Shown one piece after another: positions 4,686 through 63,161 of a DNA stretch of 64,000 bases; within the stretch, counting starts at the first letter, position 1; the number at the start of each line of letters is the position of its first letter. The stretch spans positions 124,001-188,000 of the forward strand of contig CAMKKZ010000002.1 in NCBI GenBank assembly GCA_946413525.1, given 5' to 3'. A model generated the notes under the pieces. The model did not search any database, was not told where the DNA came from, and saw only the letters and a program-made list of their open reading frames with translations. The stretch is from an uncultured Oribacterium sp. GTDB lineage: Bacteria > Bacillota > Clostridia > Lachnospirales > Lachnospiraceae. The position numbers and the translations under genes were made by a program.

Positions 4686-4770
4686 CACCCCTACCTTCCT
4701 TCCGTCATCGGGCAGCCGGCCCTGACCAACCCATAGGCCAGGGCATTGTACTCAATATTCACAGTAACCT

Positions 4771-4928
4771 ACTATGCCTGATGCATAGTTGATGCCTGGG
4801 GTTTTCTGCGGCACAAGGTTTGCCGCAGAAAATCCGTGCAAACATGCCTGAAGGCATTTTTGCACGGACGACTCCCTGCGGGAGTCGCCATATACGGCAT
4901 CAACTATGCCTGATGCATAGTTGATGCC
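4771..4928 (-). repeat. Family A multi-hairpin repeat, plus remnant of a second copy
   Basis: Reverse-oriented copy of the four-hairpin repeat. Hairpin 1 has arms GGCATCAACTATGC and GCATAGTTGATGCC. Hairpin 2 is GACTCCC/GGGAGTC, hairpin 3 CCGTGCAAA/TTTGCACGG, and hairpin 4 TTTTCTGCGGC/GCCGCAGAAAA. All four arm pairs differ from the 13.2-kb copies yet remain complementary. The stop codon TAG of asnS (4930-4928) overlaps the first bases of hairpin 1. Bases 4771-4796 are a second, partial hairpin 1, so this was probably once a tandem array. Confidence 0.85.
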
Positions 4929-6316
4929 TACATCTCACAATTGCCTACGGTTCTGGGGAACGGAAGCACATCCCGTATATTCTGCATTCCGGTAATATAC
5001 ATGACTGCCCTCTCAAAGCCCAAGCCAAAACCGGCATGCCGGGTAGTCCCATACTTTCTGAGGTCAAGGTATGCCTTGTAATCCTCTTCCTTCATGCCAA
5101 GCTCATGAATGCGGGACAAGAGCTTCTCATAATCATCCTCACGTTGAGAACCCCCTATGATTTCCCCAACCGCCGGCACAAGGCAGTCAACAGCGGCTAC
5201 TGTTTTCCCATCCGGATTTTGCTTCATATAAAAAGCCTTGATTTCCTTTGGATAATCCGTCACAAAGACCGGCTTGTTGAATATTTTCTCAGTAAGGAAA
5301 CGTTCATGCTCGGTCTGCAAATCCGTCCCCCAGGAAACCTTGTATTCAAACCCGTCATTATGCTCTTCCAATATCTTTATCGCTTCCGTATAACTTATAC
5401 GGCCAAAATCCGAATCAACGATGTTCTGAAGCCTGTCAAGCAGTCCCTTGTCCACAAACTGATTGAAAAAGGTCATTTCCTCCGGAGCAAGCTGCAGAAC
5501 ATACCTTATTATAAATTTCAGCATATCTTCGGCAAGATCCATCACGTCCGCGAGATCCGCAAAAGCAATCTCCGGTTCTATCATCCAGAATTCAGCCGCA
5601 TGCCGCATCGTATTGGAATTCTCAGCGCGGAAGGTGGGTCCAAAGGTATAAATGTTTCGGAATGCCTGGGCGAACATTTCTCCGTTCAACTGTCCTGAAA
5701 CCGTGAGCGATGTCTTTCTATGGAAGAAATCCTCGTTATAATCAACGGGATTCTTGCCGGATCCAAGCTTTTCGAGATTCAATGTGGTAACCTGGAACAT
5801 TTCCCCGGCACCTTCCGTATCCGAGCCCGTTATGATCGGGGTATGGACGTACACATATCCCCTCTCCTGGAAAAAGATGTGAATGGCATAAGCAATCAAC
5901 GACCTGACGCGGAAAACCGCCTGGAATGTATTTGTCCTGGGGCGAAGATGGCTGATCGTACGCAGGTATTCCAACGTATGCCTTTTCTTCTGAAGCGGAT
6001 ACGTTGAATCCGCGTCGCCCTCTACCTGCACATCCTCAGCCTGTATTTCAAAAGCTTGCTTCGCTTCAGGGGTAGGTATAAGTTTCCCCTTAACAATAAC
6101 TGCCGCCCCTACATTCAGTTTTGAGGTCTTCTGGAAGCCAGGCATTGTATCATGATATACCACCTGTATCGGGGTGAAAAATGTCCCATCTGAAATCGTG
6201 AGGAAACCGAAAGCCTTGGAGTCACGGTTGCTGCGAACCCAGCCACCCACCGTCACTTCCTGATTATAATACTTCTCCTGCTGCTTCCAAATATCCCTCA
6301 TTGCAATAATTTTCAT
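4928..6316 (-). CDS. asnS: Asparaginyl-tRNA synthetase
   Basis: Cytosolic class IIb aminoacyl-tRNA synthetase that charges tRNA-Asn with asparagine. The 462-residue length is normal. An N-terminal OB-fold anticodon-binding domain covers about residues 1-110 ([22 protein letters not shown]). The catalytic domain shows motif 2 ([21 protein letters not shown] region) and motif 3 ([15 protein letters not shown]), with the AsnRS-type ending [15 protein letters not shown]. Start at ATG 6316. No T-box leader with the conserved AGGGUGGNACCGCG was found in the 170 bases upstream, so specific amino-acid control is not indicated. Its stop codon overlaps a family A repeat. Confidence 0.97.
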
Positions 6317-8484: not shown

Positions 8485-8676
8485 GGATATGAATGTTCCT
8501 TCAGGAACATTCATATCCGTACCTGGCGAATCCCGCAGGGATTTTGACGCGCTTTACCTTGGAGCGCGTCAAAATCCATAGTTCATGCCGTATTTATCGA
8601 CTCTGGCGATTCCTTCAGGAGATTCGCCTTAAATCAAAAAGCCTAAAGGCATATTATGTTTGGATTTTTCAACGCC
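8485..8676. repeat. Diverged family A-type hairpin repeat
   Basis: Lies between the convergent small gene and pgi. Contains perfect hairpins GGATATGAATGTTCC-ttca-GGAACATTCATATCC and TTTTGACGCGCT...AGCGCGTCAAAA, then GGCGATTCC-ttca-GGAGATTCGCC. The linker CCGTA..TGGCGAATCCCGCAGGGA and the GGATTTTTC tail match family A, while the arm sequences are new. Confidence 0.65.
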
Positions 8677-10941: not shown

Positions 10942-10975
10942 CTTGAGCTCCTCCCCCTATCAAAGAAGTTTTTCG

Positions 10976-11110
10976 GTAACTGTTCAGTCAAGCTGAACAG
11001 TTACGCCTCGGGCGTGGCGCTTACGCGCATTCCGAGTACGCCCGAGGCAGGCTTTTCGACGCTTTCATACGCGCCTCGCGGCAAGCGCGAGGCGCTAACT
11101 GAATAGTTAC
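10976..11110. repeat. Three-hairpin repeat with family C ends
   Basis: Begins GTAACTGTTCAG and ends CTGAATAGTTAC, the family C termini. Inside are hairpins GTAACTGTTCAG/CTGAACAGTTAC, GCCTCGGGCGT/ACGCCCGAGGC and GCGCCTCGCG-gcaag-CGCGAGGCGC. The right end from AAGCGCGAGG to GTTAC recurs at about 59737-59764. Confidence 0.65.
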
Positions 11111-11112
11111 GT

Positions 11113-11225
11113 TTTTCGGCCATTTTAACAGCCGGCAAACATACACGGTATCGCAATTAATTTGATCCTTGATCAAAGATCAAAATGGTTTTCCGGTCGC
11201 TTTAATTGCCGGCAAACAGATGAGA
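11113..11225 (-). repeat. Family D repeat, two diverged copies
   Basis: Two copies with the marks GCCGGCAAACA and CGGTATCGCAATTAA or GATATCACGATC, and the stem TTAAAGCG/GGTTTTCC region. This copy carries no ribosome site for a gene. Confidence 0.55.
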
Positions 11226-11234
11226 TATCACGAT

Positions 11235-13024: not shown

Positions 13025-13204
13025 ATGACACAGATACCATACGATCCCGTTATGCTCCTGAGCTATATCAATACTCAGTTGAGGGATAATTACCCATCTC
13101 TCAAAGAGCTTTGTGACAGCCTGGATATTGATGAGGAGTATATCGAAAAACGCCTTAGTGCCATAAACAAGCACTATGACGAATCCGAAAACCAGTTTTC
13201 CTAG
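13025..13204 (+). CDS. DUF4250 family small protein (59 aa)
   Basis: A 59-residue protein with sequence MTQIPYDPVMLLSYINTQ at the start, then LRDNYPSLKELCDSLDIDEE and YIEKRLSAINKHYDESENQF. This matches the small DUF4250 family of Clostridia (pattern PxDPVMLLSxxNTxLRDxYPSL), for which no function is known. It may be a small helix-turn-helix-like regulator, judging from the SLKELCDSLDIDEEYI segment, but that is only a guess. Start supported by AAAGGAG ten bases upstream and by its own promoter. The stop codon TAG overlaps the first bases of the following family A repeat. Confidence 0.85.
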   Translation: MTQIPYDPVMLLSYINTQLRDNYPSLKELCDSLDIDEEYIEKRLSAINKHYDESENQFS

Positions 13205-13605
13205 GAATCAACTATGCATCAAGCATAGTTGATTCCGTATTTGGCGCATCCCACGGGGATGTGTCTGAACAACACATGACTTCAGGCATGTGTTGTTCAG
13301 ATTTTTCTGCGGCATTCCTTGTGCCGCAGAAAAACCTAGGAATTAACTATGCATCAAGCATAGTTAATTCCGTATTTGGCACATCCCACAGGGATGTGTC
13401 TGAACAACACATGACTTCAGGCATGTGTTGTTCAGATTTTTCTGCGGCATTCCTTGTGCCGCAGAAAAACCCGGGAATCAACTATGCATCAAGCATAGTT
13501 GATTCCGTATTTGGCGCATCCCACAGGGATGCTTCTGAACAACACATGACTTCAGGCATGTTTATTGGGATTTCCCGCGGCATTTCTTGTGCCGCGGGAA
13601 ATCCC
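13204..13605 (+). repeat. Family A repeat, three tandem copies of 135 bp
   Basis: Copies start at 13204, 13339 and 13474. Each holds four consecutive hairpins: 1) GGAAT[C/T]AACTATGC with its complement, 2) ACATCCC/GGGATGT (or GCATCCC), 3) TGAACAACACATG/CATGTGTTGTTCA, 4) TTTTTCTGCGGC/GCCGCAGAAAAA. The third copy has lost the 3' arm of hairpin 3, and its hairpin 4 is re-paired as GATTTCCCGCGGC/GCCGCGGGAAATC. Loops are conserved (ATCA, TTCAG, CCTTG). Fills the whole gap between the DUF4250 gene and dtd. Confidence 0.9.
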
Positions 13606-13635
13606 GTAAAATCCTGACAAAAGAAAGGAAGCTCT

Positions 13636-14106
13636 ATGCGATGCCTTGTACAGCGCGTGTCAGAGGCAAGCGTGACTATTGGCGAATCTATCACCGGGCA
13701 GATTGGGAAAGGATGCCTGATTTTGCTTGGCATTTCAAAAGACGATGACGAATCAGTGGCCGATAAGATGGCCAGAAAAATTCTTGATGCCCGCATATTT
13801 GAAGACGGGAAAGGAAAAACGAACTTGTCTTTGAGGGATGTAGGCGGCCAGCTTCTCATAGTCAGCCAGTTCACTCTTTATGCGGATTACCGGCACGGAA
13901 ACCGCCCCGGCTTCTCCAATGCCGGAACACCCGAAAGAGCAGAAGCTCTGTATGATTATTTTATAAATAAATGCAAGGACCAGATTGCCATTGTTGAACA
14001 CGGCGTTTTTGGCGCCGACATGAAGGTGCGTCTTATAAATGATGGCCCTTTCACTATTTTATATGATTCAGAAGAGCTTGCCTCCAATCGTGACAAGCTC
14101 CACTGA
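13636..14106 (+). CDS. dtd: D-aminoacyl-tRNA deacylase
   Basis: Cytosolic proofreading enzyme that removes D-amino acids (and glycine) wrongly attached to tRNA. The 156 residues include the family motifs SQFTLYADYRHGNRPGF near residue 78 and the Gly-cisPro motif NDGPFTILYDSEE near residue 137. The start MRCLVQRVSEASVTI is characteristic, and AAGAAAGGAAG lies just upstream. In many Clostridia dtd follows relA; here it stands alone after the triple family A array. Confidence 0.95.
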   Translation: MRCLVQRVSEASVTIGESITGQIGKGCLILLGISKDDDESVADKMARKILDARIFEDGKGKTNLSLRDVGGQLLIVSQFTLYADYRHGNRPGFSNAGTPERAEALYDYFINKCKDQIAIVEHGVFGADMKVRLINDGPFTILYDSEELASNRDKLH

Positions 14107-14283
14107 ACCGATCATGGGCAACCATTATCGCCGCAGGCGGATAAGCGCCTTTCCAACCATGGCTGACACAGATTTTCAAATGTCAAACATCATACCCGCA
14201 GGCGGATAATCATCTGCCCACGGGTAAAGATCTCATTCGAAATGTTTCCTAATTGTCACAATCGTCGAGCTTGTGCTTGCCTT

Positions 14284-17523: not shown

Positions 17524-17533
17524 GAAGATTGTA

Positions 17534-17664
17534 GGTATAAACTATGCATCAAGCATAGTTTATACCGTATTTGGCGCATCCCACAGGGATGCGTCTGAAC
17601 AAAAAATGCCTTCAGGCATGTTTTGTTCAGATTTTTCCGCAGCATTCCTTGTGCTGCGGAAAAA
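17534..17664 (+). repeat. Family A four-hairpin repeat
   Basis: Complete copy. Hairpin 1 is GGTATAAACTATGC with its complement, hairpin 2 GCATCCC/GGGATGC, hairpin 3 TGAACAAAAAATGCC/GGCATGTTTTGTTCA, hairpin 4 TTTTTCCGCAGC/GCTGCGGAAAAA. Confidence 0.9.
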
Positions 17665-17730
17665 CCCAGGTAATACCATTAATAACGTTTGCGGGACTTA
17701 CATTTTAATCACACAGGAGGTACGGCATCC

Positions 17731-19925: not shown

Positions 19926-20007
19926 TGATTTCGCTTCCATTTCCCATACATCTATGCCAGCTTTATTTGCGGGATGCTGAAAGCGCGTTTTACAAGCCCC
20001 TCCCTTA

Positions 20008-20067
20008 TTAGAGTGAGTTTTCGCTACTCTAATTTCATGACAAGCCGATGCGGTATCGCATCATTAA
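20008..20067 (+). repeat. Family D repeat, single copy
   Basis: Stem TTAGAGTGAG/CTACTCTAA followed by TTTCATGACAAGCCGATGC and GGTATCGCATC. Compared with the copies at 26.5 kb, both stem arms have changed together (AAAG/CTTT to AGAG/CTCT). Confidence 0.6.
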
Positions 20068-24168: not shown

Positions 24169-24230
24169 GGCTATTCACCTCCAATGATTCTTTTTATGAC
24201 AACGATCCAGGCACATCCTTCTTCGTAAAA

Positions 24231-24297
24231 GCAAAATATGCCCTCAGGCATATTTTGCTGGATTTTTCCACGGCATTCCTTTTGCCGAGGAAAAACC
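24231..24297 (+). repeat. Partial family A repeat (hairpins 3 and 4)
   Basis: GCAAAATATGCC-ctca-GGCATATTTTGC followed by TTTTTCCACGGC/GCCGAGGAAAAA. It sits between the promoter and rpmG, so it would be part of the operon leader (as the reverse complement). Confidence 0.65.
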
Positions 24298-24329
24298 CAC
24301 TTTTATACGATGTAAAGACATGCCAACGG

Positions 24330-26475: not shown

Positions 26476-26622
26476 TGCTCCTTTATTAAAGTGGTTATTG
26501 CCGCTTTAATTCCCGACAAACAGCCGCGGTATCGCAGGCTGCATAGCTCCTCTATTAAAGTGGTTTTTTGCCGCTTTAATTCCTGACAAACAGCCGCGGT
26601 ATCGCGATCCATACGGCTCCTT
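26476..26622 (-). repeat. Family D repeat, two tandem copies ending in Shine-Dalgarno sites
   Basis: Read on the minus strand each copy has a CGATACCGCGGCTGTTTGTC core (the second a GCGATACCGCGG variant), then a stem AATTAAAGCGG/CCACTTTAAT followed at once by AGAGGAG or AAAGGAG. The last AAAGGAG is the ribosome site of glgX, eight bases before its ATG. Confidence 0.75.
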
Positions 26623-31596: not shown

Positions 31597-31767
31597 TCAT
31601 ACTTTGACTTAATGCCGCAGGCGTTGAGTCCCATTTGTGTCGCGCCAGCGGCACAAATGAAGTATGAAAAGCTTGCTTTTCATACTTGACTTGATGCCAC
31701 AGGCATTGCGTCCCATTTGTGTCGTGCCAGTGGCACAAATGAAGTATGAAAGGCTTGCCTTTCATAC
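31597..31767 (+). repeat. Family B repeat, two tandem copies
   Basis: Period of about 80-85 bp. Each unit has hairpins GACTTAATGCC/GGCGTTGAGTC, CATTTGTGTCG/CGGCACAAATG and GTATGAAAAGC/GCTTTTCATAC. The loop-proximal bases change together between copies (GTCGCGCCAGCGGC and GTCGTGCCAGTGGC). Fills the gap between the YceG-like gene and telA. Confidence 0.8.
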
Positions 31768-31824
31768 AACCACCTGGACCCTGCAGCAACGCAGGCCTTC
31801 ACTCAAAGAAGAAAGGAATTTTTT

Positions 31825-37371: not shown

Positions 37372-40026
37372 TCAATATATAAAATCTTCCCGTCGTAGAA
37401 TCAATTTGTCATTTTTATCATACTTTGATTGGAACATACCTGCCAATTTTTTTCCTATAGGGGGTTTTTCCGCGTGATCCGCTGCCTCCTCAATCAATTC
37501 CTCTGCCCTTTGTTTTGTAAGCTTCTCACCGGCCGATTCAATTTGCTCAATCCGTTCATATAACGCCAGTATGGTCTTGCCCGTCAGGACACAATCTATT
37601 TGTCTTGCGTATTCTTGGGCATAGGCCGCGAAATCATTCATCTCCATTTCCCTGTAGTAATCTTCAGGAATATCCGGACTGAACAAGTCCTTGCCGGGAT
37701 CCCTCTCCGTCTCTTCTCTACGCTCACCCCTTTCCAGAGTTTTATACTCTTCATCTTCCCTTCCTATACGCGCCCTTTCCCGAGCCTCCAACTCCCTCCC
37801 ATCCGTCGCTTCAAAACGTTGGAGATCATTGTTTCGGAAATCCCCGGAAGAGCCAGATTCGGAATTTCGACCCGTTTCCCGCAAATCCCTGTCTCTGTCG
37901 GCCTCAGGCATATTGCGAACCTCATCGGACTGTTCGGAATCCTCCTCTGCCGCATCGTCAGCTACATCAGAAACTATATCAAAACGTTTTACAAATCCCG
38001 GCCAGTCAGATGCTATCTTATCAAAACGATGAGCAATATCAACCATTATTATAGATGAACCGTCTTTCGGCCTCGTAATATAACTTGAAATCTCATCAAT
38101 TGCCTCATATGACAGGGAGCCTGCATTTTCGATAATCAAATCTTTCTCTACAATTTTGGGTATAAATGTAGAAAAGCCATTTCTGTTAATCTTTTCCGCA
38201 TTAACCTTTGCTATTTTAAACTGATAATTATATTGATCATGGAAGTAGCGAATTTCATCTAATGCAATTCTCACCCCGGAATCCGGTGTTTTTGCCTCTA
38301 TGATCATATGGTAGGTTTCGGGATTATCCTGGACATTGGTCAAATCCCCCTCCATGCCTTTATCAAAATCTTCTGCATTATCATCTAATAACGCAGGGGT
38401 TGGCTGCTTTGAATTCCGAACTTGCAAATCGTCTGCTGAGGGGGTTTCTTCCCTCGTTTCATCGTCTTTGAATTCACTTACGGCTATCTCGGGCTGCCTG
38501 TTTTCCTCACTCCCCCGGGTTGATGGATCCCTGCCATCGTTATCATACGGTTCCTGTCCGCTGGCATCTGCCCGGGCACCATCCTCATTTGAAGCCACAG
38601 TTCTTTCCGGCATAACTCCCTTTTCCAGAGAAAGCTTCTTTTCCTGGTGGATATCGGATGCTTTTTCGTCCACATAGCTGCCCGACTGATTATTCCTCCT
38701 GTCCCTTGCCCCAGCTATTGTTTTTTCGAGCGTTTCAAGAACGTCCTCCTTTGCCGGCATAATCCTCCTGTTGGCAGATTTCCGCTGACGATGATCCGGC
38801 ACTCTTTTCGTATCTCCACCGCCTGCAGGATCCAAAACAAAGTCTTCGTTTTTTGAAACCTGCCCCCCGTCTGTCTCACCATGATAGGAAATGGCATCCT
38901 GAACCGGCCCAGCCTCGCCCTGATAAGTCGCGCTGCCCTGCATTGTCGCCGCGTCGCCCTGATAAGCTACGCCGCCCTGCATTGTCGCCGCATTACCCTG
39001 ATAAGCCGCGCTGCCCTGCATTGTCGCCGCGTCGCCCTGATAAGCTACGCCGCCCTGCATTGTCGCCGCATTACCCTGATAAGCCGCGCCGCCCTGCATT
39101 GTCGCCGCGTCGCCCTGATAAGCCGCGCCGCCCTGCATTGTCGCCGCATTACCCTGATAAGCTGCGCCGCCCTGCATTGTCGCCGCATCGCCCTGATAAG
39201 CCGCGCCGCCCTGCATTGTCGCCGCATTGCCCTGATAAGCCGCGCCGCCCTGCATTGTCGCCGCTTCGTCCTGATAAGCCGCGCCGCCCTGTACTTGCAC
39301 CTCATAATCCTGCTGAAGCTCAGGCTCATAAGTCGCCTCATTCCTGCGGCGGTATATTGTTGTGTCCTCCTCGGCATCGGAATATTCCTCCGGCACGCCT
39401 CTCGCGGCCTCTTCATAATATCCCTTGCTTTCCGAAGCATCGTTCTTTTCATACGAGGATTGAACCCTTTGCCGGAGGCGGAGAGCCTGGTCAACATAAT
39501 TCCCTTCCCCAAACAGAACGGATATCCTGTCACAGGTTTTAATACATTCTTCGGCTTTTCCAGATTCCGCATAAAGCACTGCAAGCTCATAGAGCCATTT
39601 TTCATCTATTTCCGTGTTCGTATACTGTTCAAGGCAGCCCGCCAGTTGCTCCGCTCCAGCACCCTTTGCCTTCAAGATCATATACCTGAGAAGATACTGC
39701 CTGGAATCATCCGGACTCACCTCGCAAAATTCCCTGTAAAACTCCATGGCATCCGGAACATTACCAGCCTTTACGGAAATCTCCGAGAGCTTAAACAAAA
39801 AACGTTTCCCAACCGGCGCGCGATCAAAAGCCAGCAAAAGTATATCCTTTGCCTCCTCATACTCACGGTTAATCTCGTATATTTCCGAAATCGAAGACAA
39901 TAGATTTGCGTTCCTTACTCTCCGCCAATCTATTGTGTCCGCTATCTGCATTGCAGTTTTGTAATCTCCCCTGTCGGTCATTTTTCGAATTTGTTCGGCT
40001 TTTAAATTAAATTCATATCTATCCAT
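37372..40026 (-). CDS. TPR protein with 13-residue tandem repeats and a degenerate AAA+-like C-terminal region
   Basis: An 884-residue protein that I do not recognise by name. Residues 1-190 are helical TPR-like repeats (DYKTAMQIADTIDWRRVRNA, YEEAKDILLLAFDRAPVG). Residues 244-370 are about ten copies of a 13-residue unit, AAYQGNAATMQGG, with N and D alternating. A charged disordered part follows. Around residues 560-690 the sequence can be laid on a CbbX/SpoVK-type AAA+ domain: LIIENAGSLSYEAIDEI in the Walker B place and SDWPGFVKRFDIV in the Arg-finger place. The P-loop position, EAKTPDSGVRIAL, lacks GxGKT, so ATP binding is unlikely. It lies between recR and the CvpA gene. Confidence 0.7.
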   Translation of the reverse strand: MDRYEFNLKAEQIRKMTDRGDYKTAMQIADTIDWRRVRNANLLSSISEIYEINREYEEAKDILLLAFDRAPVGKRFLFKLSEISVKAGNVPDAMEFYREFCEVSPDDSRQYLLRYMILKAKGAGAEQLAGCLEQYTNTEIDEKWLYELAVLYAESGKAEECIKTCDRISVLFGEGNYVDQALRLRQRVQSSYEKNDASESKGYYEEAARGVPEEYSDAEEDTTIYRRRNEATYEPELQQDYEVQVQGGAAYQDEAATMQGGAAYQGNAATMQGGAAYQGDAATMQGGAAYQGNAATMQGGAAYQGDAATMQGGAAYQGNAATMQGGVAYQGDAATMQGSAAYQGNAATMQGGVAYQGDAATMQGSATYQGEAGPVQDAISYHGETDGGQVSKNEDFVLDPAGGGDTKRVPDHRQRKSANRRIMPAKEDVLETLEKTIAGARDRRNNQSGSYVDEKASDIHQEKKLSLEKGVMPERTVASNEDGARADASGQEPYDNDGRDPSTRGSEENRQPEIAVSEFKDDETREETPSADDLQVRNSKQPTPALLDDNAEDFDKGMEGDLTNVQDNPETYHMIIEAKTPDSGVRIALDEIRYFHDQYNYQFKIAKVNAEKINRNGFSTFIPKIVEKDLIIENAGSLSYEAIDEISSYITRPKDGSSIIMVDIAHRFDKIASDWPGFVKRFDIVSDVADDAAEEDSEQSDEVRNMPEADRDRDLRETGRNSESGSSGDFRNNDLQRFEATDGRELEARERARIGREDEEYKTLERGERREETERDPGKDLFSPDIPEDYYREMEMNDFAAYAQEYARQIDCVLTGKTILALYERIEQIESAGEKLTKQRAEELIEEAADHAEKPPIGKKLAGMFQSKYDKNDKLILRREDFIY
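38916..39294 (-). repeat. 39-bp coding tandem repeat (about 9.7 units)
   Basis: In-frame minisatellite. Units differ mainly by an alternating codon giving Asn or Asp, so the higher-order period is 78 bp. Asp- or Glu-containing variants at the ends are more diverged. Confidence 0.9.
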
Positions 40027-44571: not shown

Positions 44572-44707
44572 ATAAATCAGGCATTAACTATGCCTGATGC
44601 AAAGCAAATGCCAGCTTTATATTAGCTATTGCTGACTCAAAACGACCGCTGCCTTGTCAGAAAACTCAGGCGGTCAAAAACAATTTTGAAAAAAGGAGGC
44701 ATTGACT

Positions 44708-45718
44708 ATGTTATGCGAAAATTGTGGACAGCCTTTGGAAGAAGGAATGAAATTCTGCACGGCCTGCGGTGCCCCTGTGAAAATTAATGCCAATGGCATG
44801 AATCTTCAAAAGGCGGGTCCTGAACAGAATCCTTATGGATATTCAGCGTCTCAGCCGGCCCACAGTCCCGATGTAAAGCAGTTTCCTGGCAATGGGCAGG
44901 AAGCCTCAAACCTTCAGCAGGGCTATGGATCTTACTCTGAAGGCGGTCAATCCTATGGTCAGGCTGCTTTCGGCCAACAGGCTTATGGGCAACCTGGCAG
45001 CGGGCAGCCAGCCTATAATAGTCAGGACGTTCGCGGCCAGAATCCTCAGGATCAATCTTCTTATGGCTCCGCTTCTTACGGGCCCGCCTCTTATGGGCCT
45101 GCTTCTTACGGGCAGAATGACTTTAATCAGAATGCCTACAGCCAAAACGCTTCCGCACAGAATGCCTATGGGCAAAACCCTTATGGAGGCGCGCCTTATG
45201 GGCAAAGCCCTTACGGAGGTGCGCCATATGGGCAAGGCTCTTACGGAGGCGCGCCATACGAGCAAAGCCCTTACGGAAGCGCGCCTTACGGGCAAAACGC
45301 GTATCAATCGCAGGCTTATCAGCCCGTGGGACCTGCAAAGGATATGTCCTTTTCCGATGCAATCACAAGCTTTTTAAGCCACTATTTCGACTGCAGAGGA
45401 AGGGCAAGGCGGAAAGAATACTGGTATGTCGTCCTTTTTAATGTTATTGCCACGCTGATCTTTAACGTCTTGTCCGGCATCTTTTCAAACGGATTCCTTC
45501 ACAACCTTATTCATCTGCTTTCGGTAGCGTACAGCCTTGCTTTATTCATACCGGGCATAATGCTCAGCATTCGAAGGATGCATGACATAGGGAAAGGAGG
45601 CGCCTGGCTTTTCATTTGCCTCATCCCCATTGTCGGACCTCTCATTTTCATTTATTTGTGCTGCAAAGATTCCGTCCCCGGCACAAACCAATATGGGCCA
45701 AACCCAAAATATTCCTGA
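44708..45718 (+). CDS. DUF805 membrane protein with zinc ribbon and Gly/Gln/Tyr-rich linker
   Basis: A 336-residue protein of unknown role. Residues 1-25 form a zinc ribbon (CENCGQPLEEGMKFCTACG). Residues 30-215 are a low-complexity, prion-like stretch rich in Gly, Gln, Tyr, Ser and Asn, with motifs such as SYGQ and PYGGAPYGQS repeated. The C-terminal 120 residues are a DUF805 domain: FDCRGRARRKEYWYVVLFNV, hydrophobic segments, and IMLSIRRMHDIGKGGAWLFI with the terminal PGTNQYGPNPK. The start ATG follows AAAAGGAGG; a TTG six bases earlier is less likely. Confidence 0.9.
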   Translation: MLCENCGQPLEEGMKFCTACGAPVKINANGMNLQKAGPEQNPYGYSASQPAHSPDVKQFPGNGQEASNLQQGYGSYSEGGQSYGQAAFGQQAYGQPGSGQPAYNSQDVRGQNPQDQSSYGSASYGPASYGPASYGQNDFNQNAYSQNASAQNAYGQNPYGGAPYGQSPYGGAPYGQGSYGGAPYEQSPYGSAPYGQNAYQSQAYQPVGPAKDMSFSDAITSFLSHYFDCRGRARRKEYWYVVLFNVIATLIFNVLSGIFSNGFLHNLIHLLSVAYSLALFIPGIMLSIRRMHDIGKGGAWLFICLIPIVGPLIFIYLCCKDSVPGTNQYGPNPKYS

Positions 45719-56716: not shown

Positions 56717-56805
56717 CACAAATCCTTGCAATCGTTCAGTCAAACTGAAAGATTCCATAGCTTTCCCTATACATCTTCCTGTCGAGCGGGGAAGGGTTTT
56801 TTCGC

Positions 56806-56945
56806 TCATCTATCAGAGTGGGTTTTGGCCGCTCTGAGTTCTGACATAGCGAACCGCCTGCGGGACAATTCGGCTCATCTATCAGAGTGGGCTCTTGCCA
56901 CTCTGAATTCTGACATAGCGGATTGCCTGCAGGGCAAACCGGCTC
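56806..56945 (+). repeat. Family D repeat, two tandem 70-bp copies
   Basis: Each copy reads CTCATCTATCAGAGTGGG, a short loop, then CCGCTCTGAGTTCTGACATA or CCACTCTGAATTCTGACATA and GCGAACCGCCTGC or GCGGATTGCCTGC. Stem arms CAGAGTGG/CCGCTCTG and CAGAGTGG/CCACTCTG differ from the 26.5-kb copies but still pair. Confidence 0.7.
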
Positions 56946-59555: not shown

Positions 59556-59635
59556 AAGCTAATCTGCAGCGCTTCCCTTTCATTCTTTCAGCCATGGAGC
59601 CCAATCCACAATCGATGATGAAAGAATTCCCTGAA

Positions 59636-59764
59636 TACTTTGACTTGATGCCGCAGGCATTGAGTCCCATTTGTGTCGCGTCAGCGGCACAAATGAAGTA
59701 TGAAAGGCTTACCTTTCATACTGACTTAATTGAGTCAAGCGCGAGGTGCTTACTGAATAGTTAC
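59636..59764 (+). repeat. Family B repeat joined to a family C end
   Basis: Bases 59636-59722 are a family B unit (GACTTGATGCC/GGCATTGAGTC, CATTTGTGTCG/CGGCACAAATG, GTATGAAAGG/CCTTTCATAC). They run into CAAGCGCGAGGTGCTTACTG and AATAGTTAC, the same right end as the element at 10976-11110. Confidence 0.7.
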
Positions 59765-62036: not shown

Positions 62037-62056
62037 TAAGCATTTCTTAAGCCCTG

Positions 62057-62109
62057 GGAATAAACTATGCATCAGGCATAGTTTATTCCGTATTTGGCGC
62101 ATGGCGCAG
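62057..62109 (+). repeat. Partial family A repeat (hairpin 1 and linker)
   Basis: GGAATAAACTATGC with its complement, then CCGTATTTGGCGCAT, after which the match to family A stops. A seventh distinct but fully paired hairpin 1 in the window. Confidence 0.75.
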
Positions 62110-62143
62110 TTTCGGCAACGGAACCACTTTAATCAACAATATT

Positions 62144-62920: not shown

Positions 62921-63021
62921 TTTCATGGAACCATGGACTATCCAATTCCTCATAAAGATGCAGGGCAAGTTTTCACAAGGGTTTTTACTTCATGCCGTAA
63001 AGTTTCCACAAAGATTGTAGG

Positions 63022-63152
63022 CTTTTCCGCAGCGCAAGGAATGCTGCGGAAAAATCTGAACAAAGTATGCCTGAAGGCATGCTTTGTTCAGACGCATCCC
63101 TGCGGGATGCGCCAAATACGGTATTAACTATGCCTGATGCATAGTTAATACC
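63022..63152 (-). repeat. Family A four-hairpin repeat
   Basis: Complete copy in reverse orientation. Hairpin 1 GGTATTAACTATGC with its complement; hairpin 2 GCATCCC/GGGATGC; hairpin 3 TGAACAAAGCATGCC/GGCATACTTTGTTCA; hairpin 4 TTTTCCGCAGC/GCTGCGGAAAA. Confidence 0.9.
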
Positions 63153-63161
63153 TACCGTAAG

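Follow-up and report, generated by a model that had tools for sequence, protein, structure and literature searches.

Family A, a palindromic repeat of an uncultured Oribacterium species (Lachnospiraceae; assembly GCA_946413525.1), is dispersed over the genome in copies with covarying stems and outward-facing GYAG ends, and for five of these copies an unoccupied paralogous site exists. It is on balance probably a gene-free palindromic mobile DNA, mostly intergenic and likely copied in single-stranded form by a transposase of the REP type (Y1, HUH); both this route of copying and the enzyme class are suggested by the likeness to REP doublets (REPINs). We see it as a REPIN-like element that is non-autonomous and unusual in being built of four hairpins. 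It does not count as a proven REPIN, because no cognate transposase gene flanked by its copies was found and because its share of divergent gene neighbourhoods is not lower than elsewhere. Tentatively, and with less confidence, it may be seen as a new class of four-hairpin, GYAG-footed REPINs of a Gram-positive lineage, moved by a single-strand transposase and owing its covariation to template switching instead of selection on RNA.

The consensus unit measures 133 nt and is predicted to fold into four hairpins with stems of 14, 8, 17 and 13 bp. Hairpin 1 (consensus GGNATNAACTATGC-ATCAR-GCATAGTTNATNCC) is separated from hairpin 2 (CGCATCCC-ACA-GGGATGCG) by the conserved linker GTATTTGG, which is unpaired in the structure used; hairpin 3 (TCTGAACAAAAYATGCC-TTCA-GGCATRTTTTGTTCAGA) and hairpin 4 (TTTTTCCGCAGCA-TTCCTTG-TGCTGCGGAAAAA) follow, and CC closes the unit. 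The predicted fold is very stable, with z between -11.4 and -12.5 in two copies, each strand of which was folded.

The copies in the window, i.e., in the whole stretch of 64,000 nt that was analysed (contig CAMKKZ010000002.1, positions 124,001 to 188,000), are given in Table 1. Their positions in the original prediction, which was made from the letters of this stretch, proved correct within a few bases when the main copies were re-located by eye and by model R1, a covariance model built from 38 copies. The three tandem copies at 13202-13606 (+) have a period of 135. The matching changes that had been claimed for two positions in the arms of hairpin 1 hold without exception in the window's full copies. 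Concerning 8485-8676, which had been listed as a partial or mosaic copy, a hairpin, a GTACCTGGCG linker and a CCC/GGG hairpin are recognizable by eye, but model R1 gives no match up to E = 10, and the region is therefore regarded as a possible mosaic relative only. Further repeats in the window are tandem repeats inside open frames at 38800-39384 and 45137-45316 (units of 39 nt and 30 nt) and short two-copy repeats at 11114-11231 and 14119-14220.

Table 1. Family A copies, parts of copies and possible relatives in the window (positions counted from its first letter).
Feature	Position	Strand	Remarks
Copy 1 of tandem triple	13202..13338	+	edges TA/GG...CC/TA; upstream small gene 13025-13204 has the left TAG as its stop codon
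Hairpin 1 of copy 1	13204..13236	+	14 bp stem, loop ATCAA
Conserved linker GTATTTGG of copy 1	13237..13244	+	unpaired in the structure used
Hairpin 2 of copy 1	13245..13263	+	8 bp stem, 3-nt loop
Hairpin 3 of copy 1	13264..13301	+	17 bp consensus stem; followed by TTTTT, terminator-like on the + strand
Hairpin 4 of copy 1	13302..13334	+	13 bp stem, loop TTCCTTG
Copy 2 of triple	13337..13473	+	model R1 159.1 bits; CCTAGG common with copy 1
Copy 3 of triple	13472..13606	+	model 126 bits; hairpins 3 and 4 altered
Full copy	17532..17668	+	model R1 165.4 bits
Full copy	63018..63154	-	model R1 157 bits
Full copy	4797..4930	-	model R1; class II (D, K and N) tRNA synthetase gene 4928-6316 has the TAG as its stop codon
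Partial extra hairpin 1 adjoining the 4797 copy	4767..4793	-	model R1 14.7 bits, E 0.017
Truncated copy: hairpin 1 and linker, diverged beyond	62055..62127	+	model R1 40.2 bits
Truncated copy: hairpins 3 and 4	24208..24299	+	model R1 51.7 bits
Hairpin 1 fragment	44580..44612	-	model R1 19 bits, E 0.0012
Possible mosaic relative, different stems	8485..8676	+	by eye; no model R1 match

In the assembly (4.02 Mb in 70 contigs, 93.5% complete), BLAST with one family A copy gave 53 matches, and the motif CCGTATTTGGCGNNTCCCNNNGGGA was found with at most one mismatch at 95 sites, the reversed motif serving as a control at none. The search with a covariance model that had been proposed for this genome and its relatives returned 152 genome matches at E <= 1 when the 150 best first-look candidates were scored, counting antisense hits on the same copies, but none in 40 relatives (best 80 candidates each, stricter filters). 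Family A was likewise absent by DNA search from 60 relatives (16 of the same genus, 20 of the same family, 24 of the same order), and the motif was found neither in 396 further genomes from the family, among which a single one belongs to the same genus, nor in the viral contigs scanned. A scan of 84,980 genomes for the exact motif yielded two places. At L131, in a Lachnospiraceae bacterium, TAGG is followed by a hairpin 1 with a very different stem, the same CCGTATTTGGCG and hairpin 2; it is the single model match in its genome (E 1.3e-9) and a probable true relative. At L130, in a Verrucomicrobia record, the model finds nothing, and this place is judged a chance match. As far as searched, family A is species-limited. 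A model search of 299 genomes of the family (best 11 candidates each) gave six matches of 29-35 bits in G134 and one of 27 bits in G292, which belong to two other genera; these weak matches look like a different multi-hairpin family and were not accepted as family A. Another hairpin repeat, consisting of CATTTGTGTCGCGCCAGCGGCACAAATG and then GTATGAAAAGCTTGCTTTTCATAC, is situated in the window at 31599-31768 and 59635-59722; by eye its layout is like that of the repeat in G134 (six matches) and G292 (one match; L145, L147-L151, L146), with different stems.

A match to an Rfam family had been named as an outcome that would speak against the original prediction. At the gathering threshold of Rfam 15 the window yields tRNAs only, and at a relaxed threshold the best match for the element reached 26.7 of the 60 bits needed. 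The titles and abstract openings returned by searches of open-licence PMC papers hold no description of the element or of a REP family in Lachnospiraceae.

Among 45 copies, the left end of the element is preceded by A at position -1 in 44, by T or C at -2 in 42 and by G at -3 in 30, and the right end is followed by T or C at +1 in 43. The 22 isolated copies exhibit the same preferences: to the left, all 22 have A at -1, 21 have T or C at -2 and 16 have G at -3; to the right, 21 have T or C at +1, 17 have A or G at +2 and 16 have C at +3. The ends thus read GYAGG...CCYRC, with a GTAG-type hairpin foot on each strand, and form an outward inverted pair in which the left GYAGG belongs to hairpin 1 and the right CCYRC to hairpin 4. 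REP enzymes are described, in the part of PMC8266576 used here, as cutting at CT, or at CT and CA, beside a hairpin, and the C/T junction at most right ends would fit such cut sites.

When the joined flanks of 47 copies were searched in stretches of the same genome, unoccupied sites were found for five copies (L008, L012, L024, L078 and L082), these being paralogues and not the same locus; the one for L012 lies inside the window at 10969-11042. A sixth case is L033, where family A is inserted within a copy of a different palindromic repeat; more than ten further places carry that repeat without family A, such that six of the 47 flank pairs have an unoccupied counterpart. The genus relatives, with an identity of about 65-72% in most of the coding stretches that align, are too distant for empty sites of the same locus to be read at the level of bases. 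At the five empty sites, the joined flanks exceed the unoccupied sequence by 2-3 nt, and no target duplication is longer than 0-2 nt. Equally, no shared duplication of at least 3 nt was found among the 22 isolated copies, a set from which 23 of 45 copies had been removed by a filter that looked for family A motifs nearby and also took out some isolated ones. Insertion into target hairpins, which by eye seemed to be the case in L012, L033, L034 and L017, is not claimed, as the mean flank complementarity of 29 copies was 2.21 vs 2.37 in shuffled pairs.

An excess of 2-3 nt would also result from a 2-bp duplication, and the extra bases of L078 are readable as a TT duplication. Together with TA on both sides of 16 of the 45 full copies and with CCTAGG at the junctions of tandem copies, this speaks for a MITE moved by a DDE transposase, e.g., of the IS630 type with its TA target duplication. 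The left and right dinucleotides, however, look independent (TA/TA in 16 copies vs about 13 expected from the margins), the best of 36 offsets gives four 2-nt matches vs 1.5 in the 22 isolated copies, with duplications of 2 bp possible in single copies and no clear signal from 3 nt upwards, the extra bases of L082 and L008 are not copied from the flank, and the terminal inverted repeats extend over about 5 bp only. A MITE is therefore unlikely.

Concerning gene context, 63 of 71 places, chosen by hand out of the 152 model matches, do not overlap with a predicted gene in a rough codon-based gene call. The neighbouring genes are arranged in tandem at 44 places, divergently at 12 and convergently at four (three undetermined, eight overlapping), and the intergenic regions of at least 50 nt in the window comprise 27 tandem, five divergent and four convergent ones. 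Since the small gene at 13025 escaped the gene caller, the three divergent places of the 13202 triple are really tandem and codirectional, and the corrected figures are about nine divergent vs four convergent. This small gene (13025-13204) ends with ...NQFS and TAG, a stop codon in which TA is completed by the element's first G. Its homologues end at the same residue in nine of 11 relative loci (NQFK, NQFR, NSFR, RQFR; E 4e-11 to 3e-21), and at L135 and L143 the next gene (MRCLVQRV..., a deacylase, at 13636 in the window) begins soon after the stop and the element is absent; the triple thus sits exactly at the native gene end and is missing there in both relatives. At five further places, including the tRNA synthetase gene at 4928, the TAG at the edge of the element terminates an open frame of at least 157 codons.

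These stop codons, the position within 50 nt of a gene at 23 of 50 stop-facing vs 15 of 70 start-facing sides, the terminator-like hairpin 3 with its TTTTT and the high predicted stability (z about -11 to -12) speak for a functional structured RNA, i.e., a cis-acting 3' element of mRNAs, a terminator or a stability element, in which selection on the RNA would make the stems covary. Against it, family A is oriented with the genes at 24 and against them at 20 of the 44 tandem-gene places, the fold is about equally stable on both strands, and neither an Rfam family at gathering score nor a counterpart in the relatives searched was found.

A further point in favour of an RNA is the strong covariation itself, which exceeds chance. 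In alignment A1 (38 copies, 37 distinct), 96.9% of the stem cells pair, a value that falls to 34-51% when the partner columns are slid by 1-3. Both sides are altered at 19 of the 52 stem pairs, compared to 5.8 (sd 1.4) in shuffles, and none of 500 shuffles reached 19. There are 63 cells with a change on both sides vs 13.9 in shuffles, the covariation score is 0.137 vs 0.065, and no shuffle out of 500 reached any of the five measures used. As the copies are related, the shuffles overstate the significance; a tree of the best 49 of the aligned matches (48 distinct) still contains 56 double changes vs 95 cases in which a standard pair became a mismatch. We regard the covariation as real and as favouring the copying of one arm onto the other in DNA more than a function of the RNA.

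If the RNA of the + strand were under selection, G-U pairs should be tolerated and A-C pairs should not. The stem mismatches of 58 distinct copies (from the best 59 of 69 aligned matches) comprise 72 G-T, 50 A-C and 71 others; one pair is T-G in 15 copies, and when it is dropped, G-T amounts to 57 and A-C to 49. The excess of G-T, which speaks for an RNA when all pairs are counted, is borderline in that case (p = 0.057) and not significant without that pair (p = 0.50) in a test that had no positive control, and the alignment, being fitted by a model with paired columns, should favour G-T if anything. Among 157 double-changed cells of the 58 copies, 81 are of the transversion type (A-T to T-A, G-C to C-G, A-T to C-G), which cannot arise via a single G-U intermediate, and 76 of the transition type. 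On the tree of 48 copies, the respective numbers of double changes are 34 and 22, and only six restorations of a mismatch are inferred, five of them from G-T.

The loops, which had been described as constant, are mostly so, but are occasionally inverted: in hairpin 1 (TTGAT) in one of 48 copies, after seven pattern hits belonging to hairpin 3 had been removed by hand, in hairpin 2 (TGT) in three of 53 and in hairpin 3 (TGAA) in two of 48. In hairpin 4, inversion was counted by pattern in none of 50 copies and seen by eye in three broken ones (L007, L036, L091). Loop inversions are few overall. Template switching yields both compensatory changes and inverted loops according to the part of PMC8794818 considered, and on this account the simultaneous changes of both arms together with the inversions point to template switching. 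The matched stem arms are probably kept in this way in DNA, and not by a working RNA. The functional RNA, one of two possibilities named in the original prediction, is thus not favoured, with no clear wobble preference, inverted loops, little coding-strand bias and no Rfam family, and we consider it rather improbable; the other, a mobile hairpin, gains support from the unoccupied sites, the lack of target duplications of 3 nt or more, the GYAG feet and the extragenic spread.

For such a gene-free mobile DNA, the GYAG foot at each end would serve a REP-type Y1 transposase as its recognition site, and the element would be copied as single-stranded DNA and inserted at many mostly intergenic sites. 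Template switching during replication would rewrite one arm from the other at a stroke, sometimes inverting the loop, and selection for hairpins suited to binding by the enzyme may keep the architecture while the letters of the stems drift.

IS200/IS605-type elements have no target duplication, as in family A, and the BOX and RUP repeats of Streptococcus pneumoniae are built of modular hairpins. The latter are also small dispersed repeats of a Gram-positive species (part of PMC3049150). The ends of the IS200/IS605 type resemble those of family A in having hairpins near both ends and a tetranucleotide at the foot (part of PMC6006769), whereas family A contains no internal coding gene and no parent element was found. 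For GTAG REPs, a GTAG motif degenerate to GYAG, outward-facing dimers and an extragenic location are described in PMC3733652, and family A shares with them and their head-to-head dimers the GYAG foot, the outward pair, many mostly extragenic copies, tandem copies and complementary stem variants. Despite these similarities, there are differences: GTAG REPs have stems of 5-13 bp in a unit of 20-40 bp (PMC3733652), whereas family A has four hairpins in 133 nt, two of whose stems, with 14 and 17 bp, are longer. Published REPs favour unidirectional and convergent genes (PMC3733652); the places of family A in the rough gene call comprise 44 tandem, 12 divergent (three of them really tandem) and four convergent ones. 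The REPINs of Pseudomonas fluorescens, which carry compensatory changes as well, have in common with family A the inverted doublet as a unit, the compensatory changes of the arms, tandem arrays and decayed single ends (part of PMC3116915); they consist of two REPs and a spacer that form a hairpin, whereas family A has four separate predicted hairpins and the linker GTATTTGG between the first two. From GTAG REPs and REPINs alike, family A differs in that no transposase gene flanked by it was found in the assembly, which is 93.5% complete. Judging from its outward GYAG feet, inverted hairpins, mostly extragenic location, tandem clusters and lack of duplications of at least 3 nt, it would work like a REPIN or BIME. 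No four-hairpin REP was found in the parts of the REP literature cited here, and the main text of PMC3733652 does not contain the words Firmicutes or Clostridi.

A Y1 transposase gene of the REP type, for which the original prediction had suggested looking, is present in the genome, but is not flanked by family A. The gene (G000:C9:6677-7414, 246 aa) is the only intact REP-type Y1 gene that a Pfam search found in the genome, and it exceeds the cut-off of NCBIfam REP_Tyr_transpos with 82.2 vs 80 bits; degraded pieces of it occur at C56 and C9. It is situated between 28-nt inverted repeats of the GGGGACGGTCC type that are 93% complementary, with a 69-nt tandem repeat between the gene and the inverted repeat. 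These surroundings resemble the TIR-associated arrangement in parts of PMC3733652 and PMC6006769. Family A as a flank of this gene was rejected because of these other repeats, the nearest clear model match being about 6 kb away. Although it is the sole intact gene of its kind found, movement of family A in trans by this resident gene is quite improbable, given its flanking by other repeats, the pairing of each REP-type transposase gene with its own REP family and the missing REP association of subclasses with a C-terminal domain (part of PMC6006769; the Y1 domain stops at residue 125 of 246), and homologues in 14 of 60 relatives vs family A in none of the same 60. The enzyme that moved family A may be missing from the assembly or have been lost.

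The tandem repeat adjoining the Y1 gene, with units of 69-70 nt (TATCAGAGTGG...CCACTCTGA...), gave 55 BLAST matches in the genome and is found in the window at 56804-56941 and 26546-26614 and in L043 at 1965-2230; the repeat into which family A is inserted at L033 is similar to it, with an unoccupied example in the window at 19998-20043. A third palindromic repeat (CACACAGGGACGGTCCTTTTGTG...) constitutes the inverted repeats around the Y1 gene and is also found beside its degraded pieces (L044 6498-6525, 8152-8179, 3154-3216 and 4290-4352; L158 4100-4643). Positions in L044 are identical with those in contig C9.

The standard way to prove a functional RNA is by covariation between paired columns. 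Family A exhibits clear covariation and yet resembles mobile DNA on four counts, namely A-C mismatches about as frequent as G-T, double changes of the transversion type, inverted loops and unoccupied sites. If this reading is true, family A constitutes a natural example of mobile DNA that tests positive for RNA structure by covariation, and dozens of similar copies in one genome would allow template switching to be measured directly. REP-like elements would extend to a four-hairpin build, which is the new part, in a lineage for which no description was found.

Length variants of family A exist as well. A form of about 190 nt, found at L085, L089, L092, L093, L094, L096, L104, L107 and L117, is enlarged in hairpin 2 by about 53 nt that contain a separate hairpin, GACTCAATCTGGCAAAGCCAGATTGAGTC (diverged in L096). 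In the better copies this extra part is flanked by two AGGGA repeats, and it is a possible nested insertion. Shorter derivatives of 75 and 81 nt, in which hairpin 2 is fused straight to hairpin 4, are situated at L108 and L109, and in L108 the part from hairpin 4 is inverted, as a template switch might leave it.
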